Assembly: GCA_947498645.1 (NCBI GenBank)
Contig: CANMKS010000001.1
Span: 1 to 64,000 of the forward strand
Source of the DNA: an uncultured Paracoccaceae bacterium
GTDB lineage: Bacteria > Pseudomonadota > Alphaproteobacteria > Rhodobacterales > Rhodobacteraceae
Length of the DNA: 64,000 nt
Reading direction: 5' to 3'
Position numbers and translations under genes: made by a program
Notes under the pieces: model-generated
Seen by the model: the letters and a program-made list of their open reading frames with translations, nothing else
The model's database searches: none
What the model was told of the DNA's origin: nothing
Shown here: piece by piece, positions 12,310 through 22,210 of the stretch
Layout of the letters: every line of letters starts with the position of its first letter
Position numbering within the stretch: the stretch's first letter is position 1

Positions 12310-13470
12310 GTGGTGGAATCCAGCGTACTAAAAAGCATGGAAAACGCGGCCATCTTAACCCTTGCAGGATTTTGTCTTGGCATTGCGCTGACCGGGCTCT
12401 TCGCTGTTGTGTTGCGGAAAGGCGGCGACCGCGAACGGCTCTGCCTCGGGATAGTTTATTTCACATTCATTGGATTGATCGCGCTTCCGCTAGTCACAAC
12501 TTTCGCTGAATTTGCGTTATTAGATTATATGCCGGCGTTGCTGGTCATGCTGCTTGCACTGCCACCGGCCTTTTATCACTACATTTTGGTTAAAACTGCC
12601 TCGCCGGCCGCTTCGCATTTTCCGTGGCGTGACACTGCAATGCCTATCGCAGGCACGGTGGTCTGTTTTGGTTTTTGGATTCTACCCGCGCAGGCCAAGG
12701 AAGTTATGTTCATTTCCGGCGATCTGCCACCAGGGTTGTTGCCAGCCGTATTAGCCCTTTTGACATTCGCGCTTCTGACCCTTTGGCTGTTGGCATCGTT
12801 TGCTTATCTTGTCGGAACACTCCGACACCTTACCGCTTTTCGCGCGCATAACCGGCAGCTTTATTCGGACGCCGAAGAACGGGATATGCGTTGGGTGAAT
12901 GTGGTGATAGCAGTGTTGGTCTTGATCTGGGCGACCGGGGCAATTTCCTTGGCAAGCGAAAATTATTCAGACGGCTCCATGTTCGCTGAGGAACTTTTTC
13001 TAGCGCTGATTGCCGGTGGTTTGTTGGTTATGAATGTCTTCGCGCCAATCGGGACACCTGAAGAGGTTTCATCGGATGACGAGGACGGGCCAGACATCAA
13101 GTACGCGCGGTCTGCGTTGTCGAGTGACTACGCGGCAAAACTGGCCGAACGGCTTGAAACGGCAATGCGGAACGAAAAGATTTATCTGGACCCAAGCCTG
13201 TCACTACAGAAATTGTCGAGACATATTGGCGCGCGGCCAAATCAAGTTTCCCAAACTTTGAACCAAGAGATTGGCGCAAATTTTTTTGACTACGTTTCGC
13301 GATGGAGAATTGAAGCGTCGAAGCCCTTAATCACCGCGGGCGATGCATCCGTGCTGGACGTGGCACTGGAAGTTGGTTTCAATTCCCGCTCAGCGTTTTA
13401 CAATGCTTTCAAACGTGAAACGGGCATGACACCGAAGGGGTATCGAGGCCTGCAACGAGGCGCTGGTTAA
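12310..13470 (+). CDS. Membrane-anchored AraC-family regulator
   Basis: 386 residues if the GTG at 12310 is used; an in-frame ATG lies at 12337, and neither has a strong ribosome site. The first ~245 residues form about seven transmembrane helices. They are followed by an acidic linker (SSDDEDGPD) and a C-terminal AraC helix-turn-helix (LSRHIGARPNQVSQTLNQ, then VLDVALEVGFNSRSAFYNAF). This 7TM-plus-HTH_18 layout is known from many Rhodobacterales and Bacteroidetes regulators. It implies direct sensing in the membrane, though the signal is unknown. It is divergent from the membrane protein at 12192. Confidence 0.82.
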   Translation: MVESSVLKSMENAAILTLAGFCLGIALTGLFAVVLRKGGDRERLCLGIVYFTFIGLIALPLVTTFAEFALLDYMPALLVMLLALPPAFYHYILVKTASPAASHFPWRDTAMPIAGTVVCFGFWILPAQAKEVMFISGDLPPGLLPAVLALLTFALLTLWLLASFAYLVGTLRHLTAFRAHNRQLYSDAEERDMRWVNVVIAVLVLIWATGAISLASENYSDGSMFAEELFLALIAGGLLVMNVFAPIGTPEEVSSDDEDGPDIKYARSALSSDYAAKLAERLETAMRNEKIYLDPSLSLQKLSRHIGARPNQVSQTLNQEIGANFFDYVSRWRIEASKPLITAGDASVLDVALEVGFNSRSAFYNAFKRETGMTPKGYRGLQRGAG

Positions 13471-13681: not shown

Positions 13682-14794
13682 TCATTCTGCTGCAATAGGT
13701 TTGGCAATCTGCGAGTCAGGGAGGTTAGCACTGCGAACCGCTTCCTTAAACAGAGACTTATGGCACCCGGTCCATGGCCTGCCTGACGCCATCCTGAACA
13801 CAAAGTCCTCCTCATCCTTGCCCTCTGCCTGATCAAGGAAGAAGGACATGCCTTCATTGGGTAGGCAGACAAAGCGACCTCGGCAACTCTTCATTGGTCC
13901 AACGTAGATCCCGAAGAAATGCCCGCCAACATCGCGCACTCTGAGCTGCGCCAGTTCTGAAACTCTACAACCCGTATAGAGTGCGCCGGTTACAAGTTGA
14001 GCCAAATCAGGTCGGCACTCTGAGATCAGTCGTTTCGCTTGTTTTCTGGTTAGAAAGTATTGCCGCGGAACGTCGGCGTGCGGCACACGACGGAGTAGTC
14101 TCCAGGATCGGTCAGATTCAATTTCCCCGTTTTCCCAAGCCATCCGAAATGTGCCCCTAAGAATGCTGATCAGAGTGTTGAGTGTTTTCTTCCGCTTCCT
14201 CAGTCGCTCATGATCCATCGTTTCAAGCGGAACACGCTTTCCGAGCAGCTGCCGCCCATACTTTGGCGGAGACTCTAGGATGTCGATGCAGAACTGAGTG
14301 AATTGGCGGGAGGTGAATTCTTCGAGAGGGGTGTCTCCCAATCGGGGAATGATGTGATGATTGATCAGTGAAAGTGTTGTTTCAAAATAGTTTACCGATG
14401 CTGCGACACGCTTCCACTCAACGTAGTCTTTCAGTGCATCACCGATTGTGAAATTTTCCGCGGTCTTTGTGTATCTCAGATGTCTATTCGCACCCTTTTC
14501 ATACGGTACTGCTGCCGCAGCTACGATTTCAGGTTGCGAAAACCAGATATTGGCCAATCGCTCAGCTTCGGTAAAATCAACACCGCCTTCATGGAAAGCG
14601 CCGACGGGGGCGAGTTGGGTCTGTTTGTAGGTTCCATTGTTCAACCGCACTCGCGCAACCCAGCATGTGGGCTTCGATGCGTTTCTTCTGACGCCTATGT
14701 GACGGCAGAATTTCACGATGTTCCAATAGGGGTAATTTCTTACGGCCAAGGCACTGACAACTGATAGGTCGTTGAGGTTTAAGGCAGGCTTCAT
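13682..14794 (-). pseudogene. Truncated tyrosine recombinase (phage-type integrase)
   Basis: 370 codons. An N-terminal arm/core-binding part (TIGDALKDYVEWKRV, RLGDTPLEEFTSRQFTQF) is followed by the start of the catalytic domain: ALYTGCRVSELAQLRVRDV supplies the first arginine and MKSCRGRFVCLP the lysine. The chain stops after LPDSQIAKPIAAE, before the HxxR box and the tyrosine nucleophile, so it cannot recombine DNA. The sequence after the stop is repeat-like. The ATG at 14794 has GGAG upstream; a TTG at 14818 is an alternative. It is probably the relic integrase of the mobile element whose replication genes lie at 17.4-20.5 kb. Confidence 0.8.
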
Positions 14795-14904
14795 TGCGTT
14801 CTCCAGATTAGGAGACAAACCCTACATTGGAAGATTCAGCCTGCAATCATCTCAATGCCACAGGGTCGGGAATAGACCTTGGCTCGGCCAATGCCGATAG
14901 CGCC

Positions 14905-15546
14905 TTACTGAGGCCCATTCTCAACAATCATCAATGCATCATCTGATAACGGCCTCTGCAACTTGAGCGCCTCATCTGTCGGCGCACTCAGCCAAGTCTC
15001 AACATTCGTCTTGTCAGTCAAAATGACCGGCATCGCCTTTGGATGAACTTCGCCCACAGTCTCATTCGCATCGGTCGTCAGAAAGCTGAACAGCTCGTTG
15101 GTTGTCTCGCCCTCTTTGAGCTTCCGCACTGACGTCCACTGCGTCCAGATCCCGGCAAAGAAGGCCAAAGGCTGCTCTTCATTCAAAGCGAACCACACAG
15201 GGGCTTTGTCCTTCCCCGGTCGAGTGTCGTACTCAGAGAAGGCCGTGAACGGAACCACACACCGGTTCTGGATGCCCAACCAGCGTCGCCAGTGAGGTGA
15301 GGCAGTGTTGCGCACATTGGTAACCCCGCGCTCTACTTTCTTGCCCTTCATCGCAAAAGCCGGTGGCGGCATGCCCCACCGCATCATGGTCAGCTCTTGT
15401 CCCTGATCGGAATTGCGCACCACGGGAGCCATTTGGTCGGGATAGATGCCTGGGAGTGCGGGCAGGTTTCCCGTCGTGTCCTCAATGCCGTTGAACAACT
15501 GGCGAATGGCGTCTTGCGCCCTTGTCATGGAGTAGAGGTTACACAC
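14905..15546 (-). CDS. SOS response-associated peptidase (SRAP; YedK/HMCES family)
   Basis: 213-residue SRAP protein, which covalently caps abasic sites in single-stranded DNA through its N-terminal cysteine. The start is placed at a GTG so that the chain reads (M)CNLYSMTRAQ, leaving C2 exposed after methionine removal as the family requires. Other family motifs are MRWGMPPPAF, NVRNTASPHWRRW, RCVVPFTAFSEY (catalytic E) and VHPKAMPVIL (catalytic H). The same reading frame continues upstream without a stop into a separate small domain (15873-15547), so a long fused product is possible. A LexA box lies 333 bases upstream of this GTG, in front of that small domain. Confidence 0.85.
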   Translation of the reverse strand: MCNLYSMTRAQDAIRQLFNGIEDTTGNLPALPGIYPDQMAPVVRNSDQGQELTMMRWGMPPPAFAMKGKKVERGVTNVRNTASPHWRRWLGIQNRCVVPFTAFSEYDTRPGKDKAPVWFALNEEQPLAFFAGIWTQWTSVRKLKEGETTNELFSFLTTDANETVGEVHPKAMPVILTDKTNVETWLSAPTDEALKLQRPLSDDALMIVENGPQ

Positions 15547-15873
15547 GCCTAAAAAATCCACTGATGACCACTGCGCCTCTTGCGCTGGAGACGAGTATGA
15601 AGGGCATAGCGTGCCATCTGCAAGAGTGAGGTCATGGAAGTGTGCCAGGAAGCGCTTGGCACATTCTACGTCCAGCAGGTGAACGGCAGCAGCATCACCG
15701 CCCATACTTGGCGCTGGATGAACGGCATACTGACCAGAACCGACTTCATTGGATAACCACCAGTGGATCTCATCGAGGCGCATCCCAAAGCCGCGCGGTG
15801 GAACGCGCAGCTTCACACGCACCGGGAAGGCGGCATCATCTGTCTTTGCGGTGGGTGTCGAACGTCTGACCAT
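15547..15873 (-). CDS. Small conserved-looking protein open into the SRAP gene
   Basis: About 109 codons from an ATG at 15873 (a GTG sits just before it), in the same frame as, and with no stop before, the SRAP gene. The sequence (FPVRVKLRVPPRGFGMRLDE, then IHWWLSNEVGSGQ, then LLDVECAKRFLAHF) looks like a compact alpha/beta domain. I recall it as small stand-alone hypothetical proteins of Rhodobacterales and Rhizobiales. Either a stop codon has been lost and the two genes are fused, or the upstream domain is a genuine N-terminal extension. The function is unknown. The LexA box six bases before the ATG marks it as SOS-controlled. Confidence 0.55.
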
Positions 15874-15878
15874 CACGA

Positions 15879-15893
15879 GAACATTTCAAGAAC
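15879..15893 (-). promoter_or_regulatory. LexA operator (alphaproteobacterial SOS box)
   Basis: On the minus strand the sequence is GTTC-TTGAAAT-GTTC, an exact match to the GTTC-N7-GTTC direct repeat recognised by alphaproteobacterial LexA. It lies six bases upstream of the ATG of the small domain that opens into the SRAP gene. A DNA-damage role is already known for SRAP proteins, which supports the site. Confidence 0.8.
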
Positions 15894-16096
15894 GCTCAAG
15901 TGGCGCAAGCTGTTCTTTGAGTAAACGTCAATTGGCGGCAACGGCAGCATTCAATTCGAGCAGTGTTCGTGCCCTGATCATGTGCGCACAGAGAACGCTG
16001 GCAGTCCCCGATCCCCAGAGCGGTCGTTGGTCCTCAGCGCAGCAACCTGTCGAGATCGATTCTCTAAATGATCAAACGTTCATCTAGACTAAACCA

Positions 16097-17410: not shown

Positions 17411-17830
17411 TTAGGCTGACGGTTTTTTCGCTGTTGCTCCCTGTACTTTGGCACCGGTTGGAAAGCTTGCATGTGTGTTGCGGGCGGTGTGACCCCAAGT
17501 GTCAGGAAAGCGTTTTTGGAGAATGTGGATCAATAACTTGGTGTCAGCTGGGCCTCCAAGGGCTGCCTGAAGTGCCTGGCGCGTCCAGTAAGCTGTCAGA
17601 TAGGTCCAACCTAATTGGCAAGCCTCATCAAAATCCGGATAGCGGTTCGCCCAATTGTACATTGTTGAAAGGGATACCTCGATCCGCGTGCACCATTCCT
17701 CCGGGAAATGTCCCTGACGTGCAAGGTCAGTGACCAATTTACAAAATTCCGGCCGATATTTCAGAGCGTTCGTAGCGCGAGGATCTCTTACGATTGGAAC
17801 GATGTTAGATCGTTTGCGACTTTGCTTCAT
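17411..17830 (-). CDS. HTH protein resembling a phage terminase small subunit
   Basis: 139-residue basic protein. A helix-turn-helix-like stretch (RPEFCKLVTDLARQGHFPEE, then VSLSTMYNWANRYPDFDEA) is followed by a helical part (LQAALGGPADTKLLIHILQK, then RFPDTWG). This pattern is typical of small terminase subunits or terminase-like HTH proteins of alphaproteobacterial mobile elements; no large terminase is encoded here. The ATG at 17830 has AGGACG upstream. It is last in the cassette primase, DUF3987, small protein, this gene. Confidence 0.6.
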   Translation of the reverse strand: MKQSRKRSNIVPIVRDPRATNALKYRPEFCKLVTDLARQGHFPEEWCTRIEVSLSTMYNWANRYPDFDEACQLGWTYLTAYWTRQALQAALGGPADTKLLIHILQKRFPDTWGHTARNTHASFPTGAKVQGATAKKPSA

Positions 17831-17918
17831 CTGTATTGATCGTCCTACAACTAAAACTGTTTCAACGTGGGCCGTTTTTGGCTTCACGCGATGCGTCCAA
17901 CGACACGGCGCGCTCCTT

Positions 17919-18149
17919 TCATGCGAAAGGATGGCACATGGTTGAGACACGGTGGGGCGAGCTTGTAGAGAGACGGGTTAGCTCAGCCGGCATTGGCGCG
18001 GATTCCATAGTCTGCACGGGAGATGCTGCTAATTTCGCTACTATTGCTACATGTGGCTGTCTTGGGCGCAGATTTGTAGCGGTTTTAGCAGTTTTAGCGA
18101 GGGCGCCGGCTTGATTCCCCGCCAAGGCACGTTTCACATCAAACCACAT
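17919..18149 (-). CDS. Small mobile-element protein after the DUF3987 gene
   Basis: 76 codons starting MWFDVKRALAGN, with a low-complexity Ala/Thr/Lys-rich middle (KTAKTATNLRPR). The start overlaps the end of the DUF3987 gene by 11 bases and has GAGG seven bases upstream. I recall similar short proteins with an N-terminal W-D-V/A-K-R-AL motif after primase/DUF3987 genes in Rhodobacterales elements. The function is unknown. The evidence is position, start site and motif recall. Confidence 0.5.
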   Translation of the reverse strand: MWFDVKRALAGNQAGALAKTAKTATNLRPRQPHVAIVAKLAASPVQTMESAPMPAELTRLSTSSPHRVSTMCHPFA

Positions 18150-19632
18150 CACGCGGCCTCGCAATGCGCCATGCCGCTTTGCGGGCGCTGCCCCTGATGA
18201 TCAGTCCAGTATCCAGCCGCAAAAGCCACCCATGCTCTTCGAGAATAGCGATTGCTGCCCTGGCCGCCTTGGTTTCGCGCAATTGTGTCGGACCATATTG
18301 CACAACCTCGCTGGCTGTTATGTCGTCATGCTCCCATCTGTCAGATAGCCAAGTACGTAGCTTTTCGGCCTTCGCAATCTCTGCAGACACCTTGACTCCG
18401 TTGATCAAACGCACCACTTCGGACAGATAATATTGCGCCAATTCAATTGCGCTCGCCATATCTAGCGCTTCAACCTGCTGGGCTTCCAGATCACGCCACA
18501 GAGTCAATACCCCCGCAATACGAGCTGCCTGCTCTGCTGCTTTGGACGCGTATCCACTTACATCTGCCAAATCGCCGTCCTTGCCTTGAGCGCGTTCAAC
18601 TTCATCGTGAAAGCGAATGAGCAGTGCCCGTGCGTTTGGCGCCAGTGCCAGGACGCGCGGGCTAACTCCACCAATTCTGTCATCTACCGGCATGGGCGTT
18701 TGCAGAATGCTGGCCAGACGGTCGTTGAAAGCTAACAAGGCCTTGTCATCCCGCCTCGATCGTGCGTGGAACCGCGTACCTATCGCGCTGGGCGGCTCAC
18801 AAATCAAAAAGCGCGGTAGAAAGCCCGTATCTGTTGTTTTTCGGTCAGCCATAAATTCCAATGCCACGATTGGTTGCACCATAAGGTGAATGGCCAACCG
18901 CCGTCCGTACAGCGCCAAATGGCCATCGCCTCCACGAGTCCGACGGATTGGGTTGCCTTGCCAGAGGTCATTCAGCGCGGCCAAGGTCTTTTGCCTGTTT
19001 TCACGGTTCATGGCGTTGCCAGCTAGGAACTGCCCACCTTCGTCAGAGAAAATTCCGAGCGAAGGTTGCCCAACCATAAAGAGTTTGGTCAAACCTTCAA
19101 ATGTTGGTTCGCTTACCGTTCTATCTGGCGCAAGTGGGCGCTGGGGTTCTGGCCCTAACGCGTCAAGATCTGCCTGGGCGGCAGTCTTTTTCTCGCCTTT
19201 GCTGCTTTTTGCGTCTTTCAGGATGCGGTCGCGGTCGCCTTTCCAAAGATCCAAGTTGTTTTCCCAACTCGCTGTCTCATCTATCTGGTTGGCATGCGCC
19301 TGCCTTTCGTGTTCGCGCAGTGACTTCATAAAATGCTCGTCGCAACTTGATTTCCGCTCACCGCTTTTTGCGATTGTCAGGCAAAAGAGTGAAGTTGGTC
19401 GGTCACCGCCAAGCGTCTCGACATTCGCATGGCCTTGGACAGCCAAGGATGCGATAGACAGTGCAGATTGCGCTGGAAGGGCAAGAGGGGCCAATACAAT
19501 ACTTTGCACAGCTTCTACAGCCCGGCGCAGCGGACCTAGTGCAGCGACAGGATAGGCCTCTCCGGTGGCAATAGCGCCAACAAGCGGCTGTGGTCCTTCT
19601 GGCGCGAAAGCAATGGGTTGCGGCAAAGTCAT
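18139..19632 (-). CDS. DUF3987 (YfjI-like) protein of a mobile-element replication cassette
   Basis: 497-residue protein of the DUF3987 family, commonly found next to Toprim primases in phages, phage satellites and integrative elements. It is thought to be a divergent helicase-like partner. Visible features are SLFCLTIAKSGERKSSCDEH near 80-100 (a P-loop-like AKSGERKS), GIFSDEGGQFLAGNAMN near 200 (acidic Walker-B-like) and FLPRFLICEPPSA. A coiled basic segment follows residue 120, and a winged-helix-like C-terminus starts near 430. Its ATG overlaps the primase stop by four bases, so the two are translationally coupled. Confidence 0.8.
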   Translation of the reverse strand: MTLPQPIAFAPEGPQPLVGAIATGEAYPVAALGPLRRAVEAVQSIVLAPLALPAQSALSIASLAVQGHANVETLGGDRPTSLFCLTIAKSGERKSSCDEHFMKSLREHERQAHANQIDETASWENNLDLWKGDRDRILKDAKSSKGEKKTAAQADLDALGPEPQRPLAPDRTVSEPTFEGLTKLFMVGQPSLGIFSDEGGQFLAGNAMNRENRQKTLAALNDLWQGNPIRRTRGGDGHLALYGRRLAIHLMVQPIVALEFMADRKTTDTGFLPRFLICEPPSAIGTRFHARSRRDDKALLAFNDRLASILQTPMPVDDRIGGVSPRVLALAPNARALLIRFHDEVERAQGKDGDLADVSGYASKAAEQAARIAGVLTLWRDLEAQQVEALDMASAIELAQYYLSEVVRLINGVKVSAEIAKAEKLRTWLSDRWEHDDITASEVVQYGPTQLRETKAARAAIAILEEHGWLLRLDTGLIIRGSARKAAWRIARPRDVV

Positions 19633-20510
19633 TGCGGGAACCCATTCGAAGTCAGAATGTCATTCCAATCACGGCCCTCGGGCGCTGGTAGCAGCGACAC
19701 CGACCATCCAAGCGCAACGGCACGATGTGCCAATACATGGGCCGCATCCAGGCCCGCTGCGTCGCCATCTGCTGCAATGATTAATTTGGCGGGAGAAGCA
19801 GGCAACCGCAGGCGGCGCAGTCCAGAGGTAGACAGTGCCGCCCAGATGGTTGCGGTGTGCGCAAGCGAACCAGACGCAAGGCTTAGAGCCGTCTCGATCC
19901 CCTCGGAAACCACAAGCGGGCCAATGCCATCTATGAGTCTAACCGCGCCCCCCGCCGTTGATGCTAGCATTACCTTTGTCGGGTCAACATCAGCTTTGCC
20001 GCTACCGTCAGACTGCAGGTAGGTACGGTGGATGGCAAAGTTGTCGCTACCCGCTATCCGTGCGACAAGCGCGGGGAGGCGTTTCGCGCTCGCTCCATGC
20101 CAGGCTGCAGGGTGAAACCGAAGACTATTTCCAAGCGCGCTAGTGATCCCACGCCTCCTGAGATACAATTCAGCGATGGTGCCGGTGATCGGTTGAGCCT
20201 CCAACCAGACCGACCGAGCTTGACGCGATCGCTGCAAGGCCTTTGATTTGCGTTCGCTTTCGCGCTTGGCCAAAGATTCTGAGGTTGGCAGCCTGATCGT
20301 GCCGGTGATCAAACCTAGAGCAGCAGCGATGTCAGAAAACTTGCAGCTGGACTTATGACAATATGCCAGCATGCCCTTATGTCCACCTTTCAGACTGAGT
20401 GCATTCTGATCGTGGCGCCGTTCAGGCTGGCAAACCGGGCAAGGTGCGGTGCCGTAGTGGCCATGCCATTTTCCGTTCAACGAGAGCGTTATTGTTTGGG
20501 CATCAAACAT
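19629..20510 (-). CDS. Toprim-domain primase of a mobile element
   Basis: 293 residues from the ATG at 20510, which has GAGGTG upstream. An N-terminal zinc-binding part (CPVCQPERRHDQNALSL, then YCHKSSC) resembles the CHC2/P4-type primase finger. The Toprim domain follows, with GPLVVSEGIETALSLASG (catalytic glutamate) and KLIIAADGDAAGLDAA (DxD-type). It would prime replication of the element together with the DUF3987 protein. It points away from rimO, so the element boundary probably lies between about 20511 and 20730. Confidence 0.85.
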   Translation of the reverse strand: MFDAQTITLSLNGKWHGHYGTAPCPVCQPERRHDQNALSLKGGHKGMLAYCHKSSCKFSDIAAALGLITGTIRLPTSESLAKRESERKSKALQRSRQARSVWLEAQPITGTIAELYLRRRGITSALGNSLRFHPAAWHGASAKRLPALVARIAGSDNFAIHRTYLQSDGSGKADVDPTKVMLASTAGGAVRLIDGIGPLVVSEGIETALSLASGSLAHTATIWAALSTSGLRRLRLPASPAKLIIAADGDAAGLDAAHVLAHRAVALGWSVSLLPAPEGRDWNDILTSNGFPQ

Positions 20511-20779
20511 GAACACACCTCGAAGTTGCGATTGAGCAAACAGCTTGGTAAAGACTGCGGCCAAAAGATAGCATCTTTGGGCTGCCGACACCGACGGATC
20601 GCACGCCAACGACACTCACTTAGAGCACTCGCTAGGTAGTTCAATCAGAATTGGGTCAGGCCCAGATAAGACCACAGGCACAGCGGGCCCGCTATTGCGC
20701 GCCCGCATCGGCAAACCTGTCACCAGGACTGATGCCACACCCCATTCCCAACGCCCCCACCCCGCGCTATACGGCGCGG

Positions 20780-22210
20780 ATGACACAGAACCCGCCATCG
20801 CTCCGCCCTGACCTCGCGCCTGCTGCGAAAATCACCGATGCCCCCCGCGACGGGCAACCGACCATCGGCATGGTTTCACTTGGTTGTCCCAAGGCGCTGG
20901 TGGACAGTGAACGCATCCTGACCCGCCTGCGGGCCGAAGGTTACGCGATTTCGCCCGACTACGCGGGTGCAGAGGCGGTGATCGTGAACACCTGCGGGTT
21001 TCTCGACAGCGCCAAGGCGGAATCCCTTGATGCCATTGGCGAGGCATTGCAGGAAAACGGCAAGGTCATCGTCACGGGCTGTCTGGGGGCGGAACCGGAT
21101 TATATCCGCGAACATCACCCACAAATCCTTGCCGTGACGGGGCCGCATCAATACGAACAGGTGCTCGATGCCGTCCACGCCAATGTGCCACCCGCGCCCG
21201 ACCCGTTCATTGACCTGCTGCCTGCCAGCGGGGTCAGCCTGACGCCGCGCCACTACAGCTACCTGAAAATCTCTGAGGGCTGTAACCACAAGTGCAAGTT
21301 CTGCATCATCCCCGATATGCGCGGGCGGCTGGCATCGCGCCCCGCCCATGCGGTGCTGCGCGAGGCGGAAAAGCTGGTGCAGGCCGGGGTCAAGGAACTG
21401 CTGGTCATTTCTCAGGATACCTCTGCCTATGGGCTGGACCGGAAATACGATGTGAACCCTTGGAAAGATGGCGAGCTGCGCAGCCACATCACCGACCTGA
21501 CGCGCGCGTTGGGGCAACTGGGCGCATGGGTGCGCCTGCACTACGTCTACCCTTACCCCCATGTGCGCGACCTGATCCCGATCATGGCGGACCCGTCAAA
21601 CGGCGTGCTGCCCTATCTGGATATCCCCTTTCAGCATAGCCACCCCGACGTGTTGCGGCGCATGGCGCGGCCTGCGGCGGGTGCAAAGACCCTCGACGAG
21701 ATCGCAGCATGGCGGGCGGCCTGCCCTGACATCACCCTGCGATCGACCTTCATCGTGGGCTATCCGGGCGAGACAGAGGCCGAGTTCCAGCACCTGCTGG
21801 ATTGGCTGGATGCCGCACAGCTGGACCGGGTGGGCTGTTTTCAATACGAAAACGTCGCGGGCGCGCGCAGCAACGCCCTCCCCGACCATGTGGCGGCGGA
21901 GGTCAAACAGGACCGGTGGGAACGGTTCATGGCCAAGGCGCAAGAGATTTCCGCGGCGAAACTGGCGGCCAAAGTGGGCCGGACGCTCGAAGTGATCGTG
22001 GACGACATTGATGAGGACGGGATCGCCACCTGTCGGACATGGGCGGACGCGCCGGAGATCGACGGGAATTTGTTTATTGATGACGGGGTTGAGGGGTTGG
22101 CCGTGGGGGATGTTGTGACGGTGGAGGTTGAGGAAGCGGGAGAGTATGATTTGTGGGGAGCGCACAATAGAACTGCTGTGGTAGAGAGTCCCACCGTCAG
22201 GCCTAAGTGA
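20780..22210 (+). CDS. rimO: Ribosomal protein S12 methylthiotransferase RimO
   Basis: 476-residue radical-SAM enzyme that adds a methylthio group to the conserved aspartate of ribosomal protein S12. It has the N-terminal UPF0004 domain with its cysteines in [18 protein letters not shown] and VTGCLGAE. The radical-SAM 4Fe-4S motif is in [13 protein letters not shown], the mid-domain in [15 protein letters not shown], and a C-terminal TRAM domain follows. The ATG at 20780 is chosen because the chain then begins [14 protein letters not shown] as in relatives. An in-frame ATG at 20732 (after CAGGACTG) is possible. It marks the return to core-type, GC-richer sequence. Confidence 0.93.

Follow-up and report, generated by a model that had tools for sequence, protein, structure and literature searches.

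How can a protein that must carry its reactive cysteine at the very N-terminus be encoded in frame behind another domain? This question is raised by one gene in the window, by which we mean the whole stretch of 64,000 nucleotides analyzed here. According to the relevant parts of PMC9436759, the alpha-amine of Cys2 of SRAP proteins is the first nucleophile and bonds the abasic site, and no cross-link forms once formaldehyde blocks it. Since SRAP chemistry needs this free N-terminal cysteine, a conserved in-frame fusion represents a natural test of how the end is made. In the sections that bear on this point, two published accounts disagree. Self-cleavage before the cysteine is argued in PMC3765255 (Aravind 2013), citing the tagged YedK crystal 2icu; the sequence preceding the cysteine was missing from every one of the five SRAP structures that the PDB contained at the time, as well as from the tagged YedK. 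In PMC9436759, the removal of Met1 in E. coli is independent of the active site, and YedK active-site mutants still lose Met1. A fused gene bears directly on the choice between an internal start and self-cleavage.

Layout of the gene

The frame runs from 15876 to 14905 on the minus strand and is open throughout (323 aa), encoding a small N-terminal domain, hereafter the N-domain, and then a complete SRAP with no stop between them. Alignment with homologues places the start at the ATG at 15873 and not at the GTG at 15876. The layout agrees with the earlier note, which had described a domain of about 109 residues followed without a stop by a full SRAP: the N-domain has 109 aa and no library match above cut-off, PF02586 is covered nearly in full, and SRAP is the one curated family in the frame. 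The features of the gene and its promoter are as follows.

15903 to 15908, minus strand: -35-like hexamer TTGCGC, its TTG spacing shared by 18 of 29 boxed N-domain loci
15879 to 15893, minus strand: LexA (SOS) box GTTCTTGAAATGTTC, an exact GTTC-N7-GTTC at a conserved place, with a box also before lexA and recA
15880 to 15885, minus strand: -10-like hexamer AATGTT, overlapping the second half-site of the LexA box
15547 to 15873, minus strand: N-domain, 109 aa from the ATG at 15873, recognized from homologues, dN/dS and a structural model
15544 to 15546, minus strand: junction codon GTG, proposed internal start, based on codon conservation in fused loci
15541 to 15543, minus strand: SRAP cysteine codon TGT, immediately after the junction GTG
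14905 to 15546, minus strand: SRAP, 213 aa, CNLY-type (PF02586 E 6e-30; PDB phmmer E 8.1e-52)
14907 to 14905, minus strand: stop codon of the frame

Over the whole frame, residues 112-316 match PF02586 (E 2.1e-28); when translation begins at the GTG at 15546, the match covers positions 1-203 of the 214 in the profile (E 6e-30), and the SRAP start is not disrupted. The residues C111, N186, N189, E214 and H277 are invariant in all 17 fused proteins that were aligned, of 26 known, and we take them to be the equivalents of the YedK catalytic residues. The cysteine stands directly behind a start codon in 26/26 fused loci, counting ATC as a start. The SRAP of the window is complete, and on the best reading it is started internally, which would give a free Cys2 at its mature N-terminus. 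A second SRAP-like match in the genome (C1:245007-245444) is distant, at 28% identity, so the copy in the window looks accessory.

The N-domain family

The N-domain has no Pfam match above the cut-off and none in NCBIfam, PHROGs or PADLOC. Within the family to which the window belongs, a single-protein search of 295 sampled genomes placed it in 11, the window's own included. A class-wide profile search matched 3/385 genomes, one of them weakly, which marks the N-domain as rare at this depth of sampling. When one genome per species was scanned, it turned up at 14 loci, in Paracoccus, Defluviimonas, Gemmobacter, Sedimentitalea and other Rhodobacteraceae, and in Novosphingobium; it also lies on two plasmids (Sphingobium and Paracoccus) and on 9 viral or proviral contigs, the counts of these separate searches overlapping because some loci recur. 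When the window N-domain alone served as the query, a first viral scan found no relative, and no N-domain match was found in phage records.

Comparisons of close fused pairs gave dN/dS values of 0.03-0.11 for the N-domain and 0.07-0.14 for the SRAP part; the other pairs computed gave 0.08-0.26, with one saturated. By these sequence comparisons, the N-domain is a real family under purifying selection. Its model (pLDDT 71) shows a beta-alpha-beta-beta-alpha order with a low-confidence tail, which tentatively suggests a generic ferredoxin-like fold, a beta-alpha-beta-beta-alpha-beta sandwich; fold comparison of the model returned generic matches only, with no viral match below E 0.001, and a PDB profile search returned nothing below E 0.6. 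The model of the fusion shows two folded parts joined by a low-confidence stretch at residues 88-118 and says nothing about cleavage.

LexA box and promoter

The earlier note had seen a perfect GTTC-N7-GTTC LexA box before the frame; the box does match exactly (15893-15879, minus strand) and is separated by 5 nt from the ATG at 15873. Its abundance in the window was rejected as evidence, with four perfect copies against 2.0 expected and 15 of 100 shuffles reaching four. The box counts as evidence because its position before N-domain starts is conserved, not because of its number. A perfect box lies within 80 nt of the start at 29 of 43 distinct N-domain starts, and 24 of those boxes lie 0-8 nt before the start; the other 14/43 are without a box, one of them for want of upstream sequence. 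The box is also present in 10/20 unfused N-domain copies. In the window the promoter reads TTGCGC, 17 nt, AATGTT, 6 nt, ATG. Among the boxed N-domain loci, 18/29 have a TTG 17-18 nt upstream of the -10-like hexamer, against 3.3% at random places, and in most the start codon follows the end of that hexamer by 5-9 nt. Upstream of lexA and recA of this genome there is also a GTTC-N7-GTTC box, in reverse orientation. The sequence mark of the LexA regulon in Alphaproteobacteria, namely this box over the promoter and at lexA and recA, is therefore present. The gene appears to be under LexA/SOS control and switched on by DNA damage, as we infer from the box and the promoter geometry. The hexamer ends so close to the start codon that a leaderless mRNA from the ATG at 15873 is predicted.

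Unfused N-domain genes with the same LexA box occur in several settings. Two of them (L022 and L041) lie near phage head genes, another (L032) near an abortive-infection-like gene, and another (L015) beside a plasmid gene for a single-stranded-DNA-binding protein.

Island context and other small partners

The gene sits on a small island that resembles a phage satellite, as judged from the genes around it:

13682 to 14818, minus strand: integrase, adjoining the gene (phrog_1, E 5.5e-24)
17411 to 20615, minus strand: terminase small subunit, helicase (DUF3987) and Toprim primase, on the same island (phrog_309, phrog_2373, phrog_510; Pfam)
12310 to 13470: AraC-type regulator, at the island flank
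20651 to 22210: radical-SAM/TRAM gene, at the island flank

Two transposase remnants also lie on the island beside the gene. Besides the terminase small subunit, the frames searched between 13682 and 20615 include no phage structural gene.

Other small genes stand before SRAP elsewhere. A small Cys-rich protein (CxxC...CxxC), with a tail like KWIWRDERA, is encoded directly before the same SRAP type at 18 distinct loci (21 matches among 205 loci), for example at L038 4301-4615 and at L169-L173. A stop lies between the two genes in 18/18 distinct loci, in a search whose pattern did not require one. Among these loci are Paracoccus plasmids and phage Pyei1, in which an SOS box lies about 325-341 nt before SRAP. 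Two examples of the Cys-rich protein had no Pfam match. At two loci (L038 and L177) the Cys-rich gene lies between an unfused N-domain and SRAP. At four others (L106, L123, L178 and L202), different small genes lie between the SOS box and SRAP, with a stop intervening. SRAP operons on mobile elements thus seem, from their gene order, to swap small upstream partners.

The fusion across relatives

The earlier note had named, as grounds for abandoning its proposal, a fusion present in one strain with a disrupted SRAP start. This is not so: the SRAP start of the window is intact, and the in-frame fusion is found at 26 distinct loci in Rhodobacteraceae, including Paracoccus, and on viral or proviral contigs. 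The search it had proposed for the small domain as a stand-alone gene found the N-domain unfused at 21 distinct loci; at one of these (L031), a SRAP of the MCGRF type begins 3 nt after the N-domain stop, in the same frame. Identical copies were removed from these counts, two broken fragments (L030 and L075) entered only the fused count, and the weak match L019 was left out. All 26 N-domains that stand directly before the SRAP type of the window are fused to it. The fused rows are scattered over the SRAP tree, with 12 changes by parsimony and at least 3 forced by well-supported branches, in a tree of 105 rows without L021 in which 39 of 102 inner branches are unresolved. Because the fused loci share ancestry, they are not 26 independent cases.

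The N-domain is damaged in 2 of the 26 fused loci, by a stop in L030 and by a frameshift in L075, and the SRAP frame and its GTG persist in both. No conclusion was drawn from these two loci as natural tests of the internal start: intact close relatives exist for both, and the damage may have arisen only recently. The fused Paracoccus locus L021 has a stop inside SRAP.

The junction codon as an internal start

In the 26 fused loci, the codon before the SRAP cysteine is GTG in 19, ATG in 4, ATC in 2 and TTG in 1. The junction valine is thus encoded by GTG in 19/19, against 201 of the 512 other valine codons in the same genes; not one of ten further valine-rich SRAP columns is all GTG. On a tree of 25 rows (L021 left out), the junction valine shows 0 synonymous changes against 4-10 at the ten control columns, defined as having valine in at least 13 rows. 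Valine would use several codons if only the residue mattered; GTG throughout therefore favors internal initiation.

The pairing of the region before the junction with the anti-Shine-Dalgarno sequence has a median of -6.7 kcal/mol over the 26 loci, against -2.2 at other in-frame places, and in 15/26 it lies within the best tenth of in-frame places. Among 300 synonymous randomizations, 0 reached the observed mean. The junction of the window itself is weak (-3.1, 27th percentile), and L025, L026 and L030 are likewise weak. Unfused relatives carry a start codon at the same place before the cysteine, mostly ATG (70 of their 80 tree rows; fused rows have ATG in 4 of 25). Non-ATG starts are found in 21/25 fused and 10/80 unfused rows, a comparison with only 3 supported independent pairs on a poorly resolved tree. 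The internal start codon, by which a nested in-frame start is recognized, is conserved. The restart of SRAP at the GTG at 15546, as proposed in the earlier note, gains support from both the codon-level conservation and the Shine-Dalgarno enrichment over relatives. Because relatives keep a start codon exactly where SRAP must begin, one gene probably makes two products.

The ATC junctions belong to two fused Paracoccus loci, one of them L021; ATC is a poor and unusual start codon. Near-identical unfused SRAP genes on Paracoccus zhejiangensis plasmids (L171 2504-3127 and L204 1501-2124) also have ATC before the cysteine, and an in-frame stop precedes it by a few codons, with a CTG lying between. 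Their annotated SRAP begins further in and drops the essential cysteine. With the stop just upstream of it, ATC may serve as the start there, and the sequence suggests AUC initiation and a misannotation in these two copies.

Explanations of the fusion

We consider it probable that the gene is an SOS-induced, nested two-product gene. DNA damage would cause LexA to leave the box overlapping the -10 element, and an mRNA beginning at or next to the ATG at 15873 would be translated, leaderless, into the N-domain-SRAP fusion. Ribosomes starting separately at the GTG at 15546 would yield SRAP alone, and removal of the initiator methionine would leave its cysteine N-terminal and able to form a thiazolidine cross-link with an abasic site. 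The N-domain would act as a conserved SOS partner, directing SRAP, or a version of SRAP unable to cross-link, to some site or partner. That it is a new SOS-linked partner of SRAP had been suggested in the earlier note, and the conserved box and promoter, the purifying selection on the N-domain and the boxed unfused copies speak for it. The open frame, the conservation of start codon and frame, and the selection on both domains are features of the DNA; from these we infer the making of both proteins and a role for the fusion. We hold more tentatively, as a possibility somewhat short of an even chance, that the two nested starts supply locked and open forms of one DNA-capturing protein upon damage, with the N-domain setting where or when SRAP acts on mobile-element DNA. 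The locked form would be the leaderless full-length product, its reactive cysteine held in a peptide bond that self-cleavage, if anything, would open; the open form, active SRAP, would come from the inner start.

It is conceivable, though we think it unlikely, that these are two ordinary genes merely lacking a stop between them, with the read-through fusion a tolerated by-product. This shares the internal start with the nested two-product explanation, and the likelihoods given to the two overlap. The unfused N-domains at 21 loci, the SRAP that follows a stop by 3 nt in L031, and the persistence of the SRAP frame and GTG behind the broken N-domains of L030 and L075 all fit it. However, a stop-free common frame is kept in 26 loci scattered over the SRAP tree, with the parsimony changes given above, whereas the Cys-rich upstream gene always has a stop before SRAP. 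The frame kept open suggests that the long form also matters. A rather improbable alternative makes the fusion the sole product, with SRAP cutting itself off before its cysteine and the N-domain as a propeptide. YedK is reported, in the relevant part of PMC3765255, to lose a longer tag ahead of its cysteine, which means that the cysteine could also be freed by cleavage; the lost pre-Cys sequences of the SRAP structures point the same way. Additionally, the Cys, Asn, Glu and His columns are kept in all the fused SRAPs aligned (17 of 26), and no residue other than V, M, I or L occurs at the junction. Constraint at the protein level nevertheless leaves the all-GTG valine, the zero synonymous change and the Shine-Dalgarno enrichment unexplained; a start codon also precedes the cysteine in unfused relatives, and Met1 was still lost in the active-site mutants of YedK, in the pertinent part of PMC9436759. 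We give very little credence to a permanent fusion without a free cysteine, in which SRAP only binds DNA: the open frame and the purifying selection on both domains agree with it, but the cysteine, the active-site columns and the start codon before the cysteine are all conserved. Overall, the codon evidence favors internal initiation, and some self-cleavage of the long form is possible.

Comparison with known systems

SRAP itself is known. What appears to be new is that SRAP has here an N-terminal partner, conserved and apparently under SOS control, together with an internal start that is likewise conserved; among the titles listed by a broad literature search there was no report of a SRAP fusion or of an internal start. 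The gene draws attention to a small-domain family linked to SOS that none of the searched libraries annotates, and to mobile-element SRAP operons with differing small upstream partners.

Like the SRAP family YedK/HMCES (PF02586, formerly DUF159), the gene has a complete domain, a cysteine after the start codon, an SOS link and an association with prophages; unlike that family, it has a further domain, N-terminal and in frame, under an SOS promoter of its own. The closest solved SRAP is 2aeg, Agrobacterium AGR_pAT_140 (PDB phmmer E 8.1e-52), which has the same MCNLY start as the SRAP of the window, but its chain begins at that methionine, without an N-domain. The Zn-ribbon-like partners in SRAP/Ku neighborhoods, as described in part of PMC3765255 (Aravind 2013), are also small proteins co-encoded with SRAP, and a Cys-rich gene likewise stands upstream of SRAP at some of the loci analyzed here, whereas the N-domain of the window is fused and has no CxxC pair. 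Finally, as in bacterial genes with in-frame internal starts (N-terminal proteoforms), one frame would give two products. The gene of the window differs from these in that its second start would expose a catalytic residue, while its first start is predicted to be leaderless and SOS-controlled.
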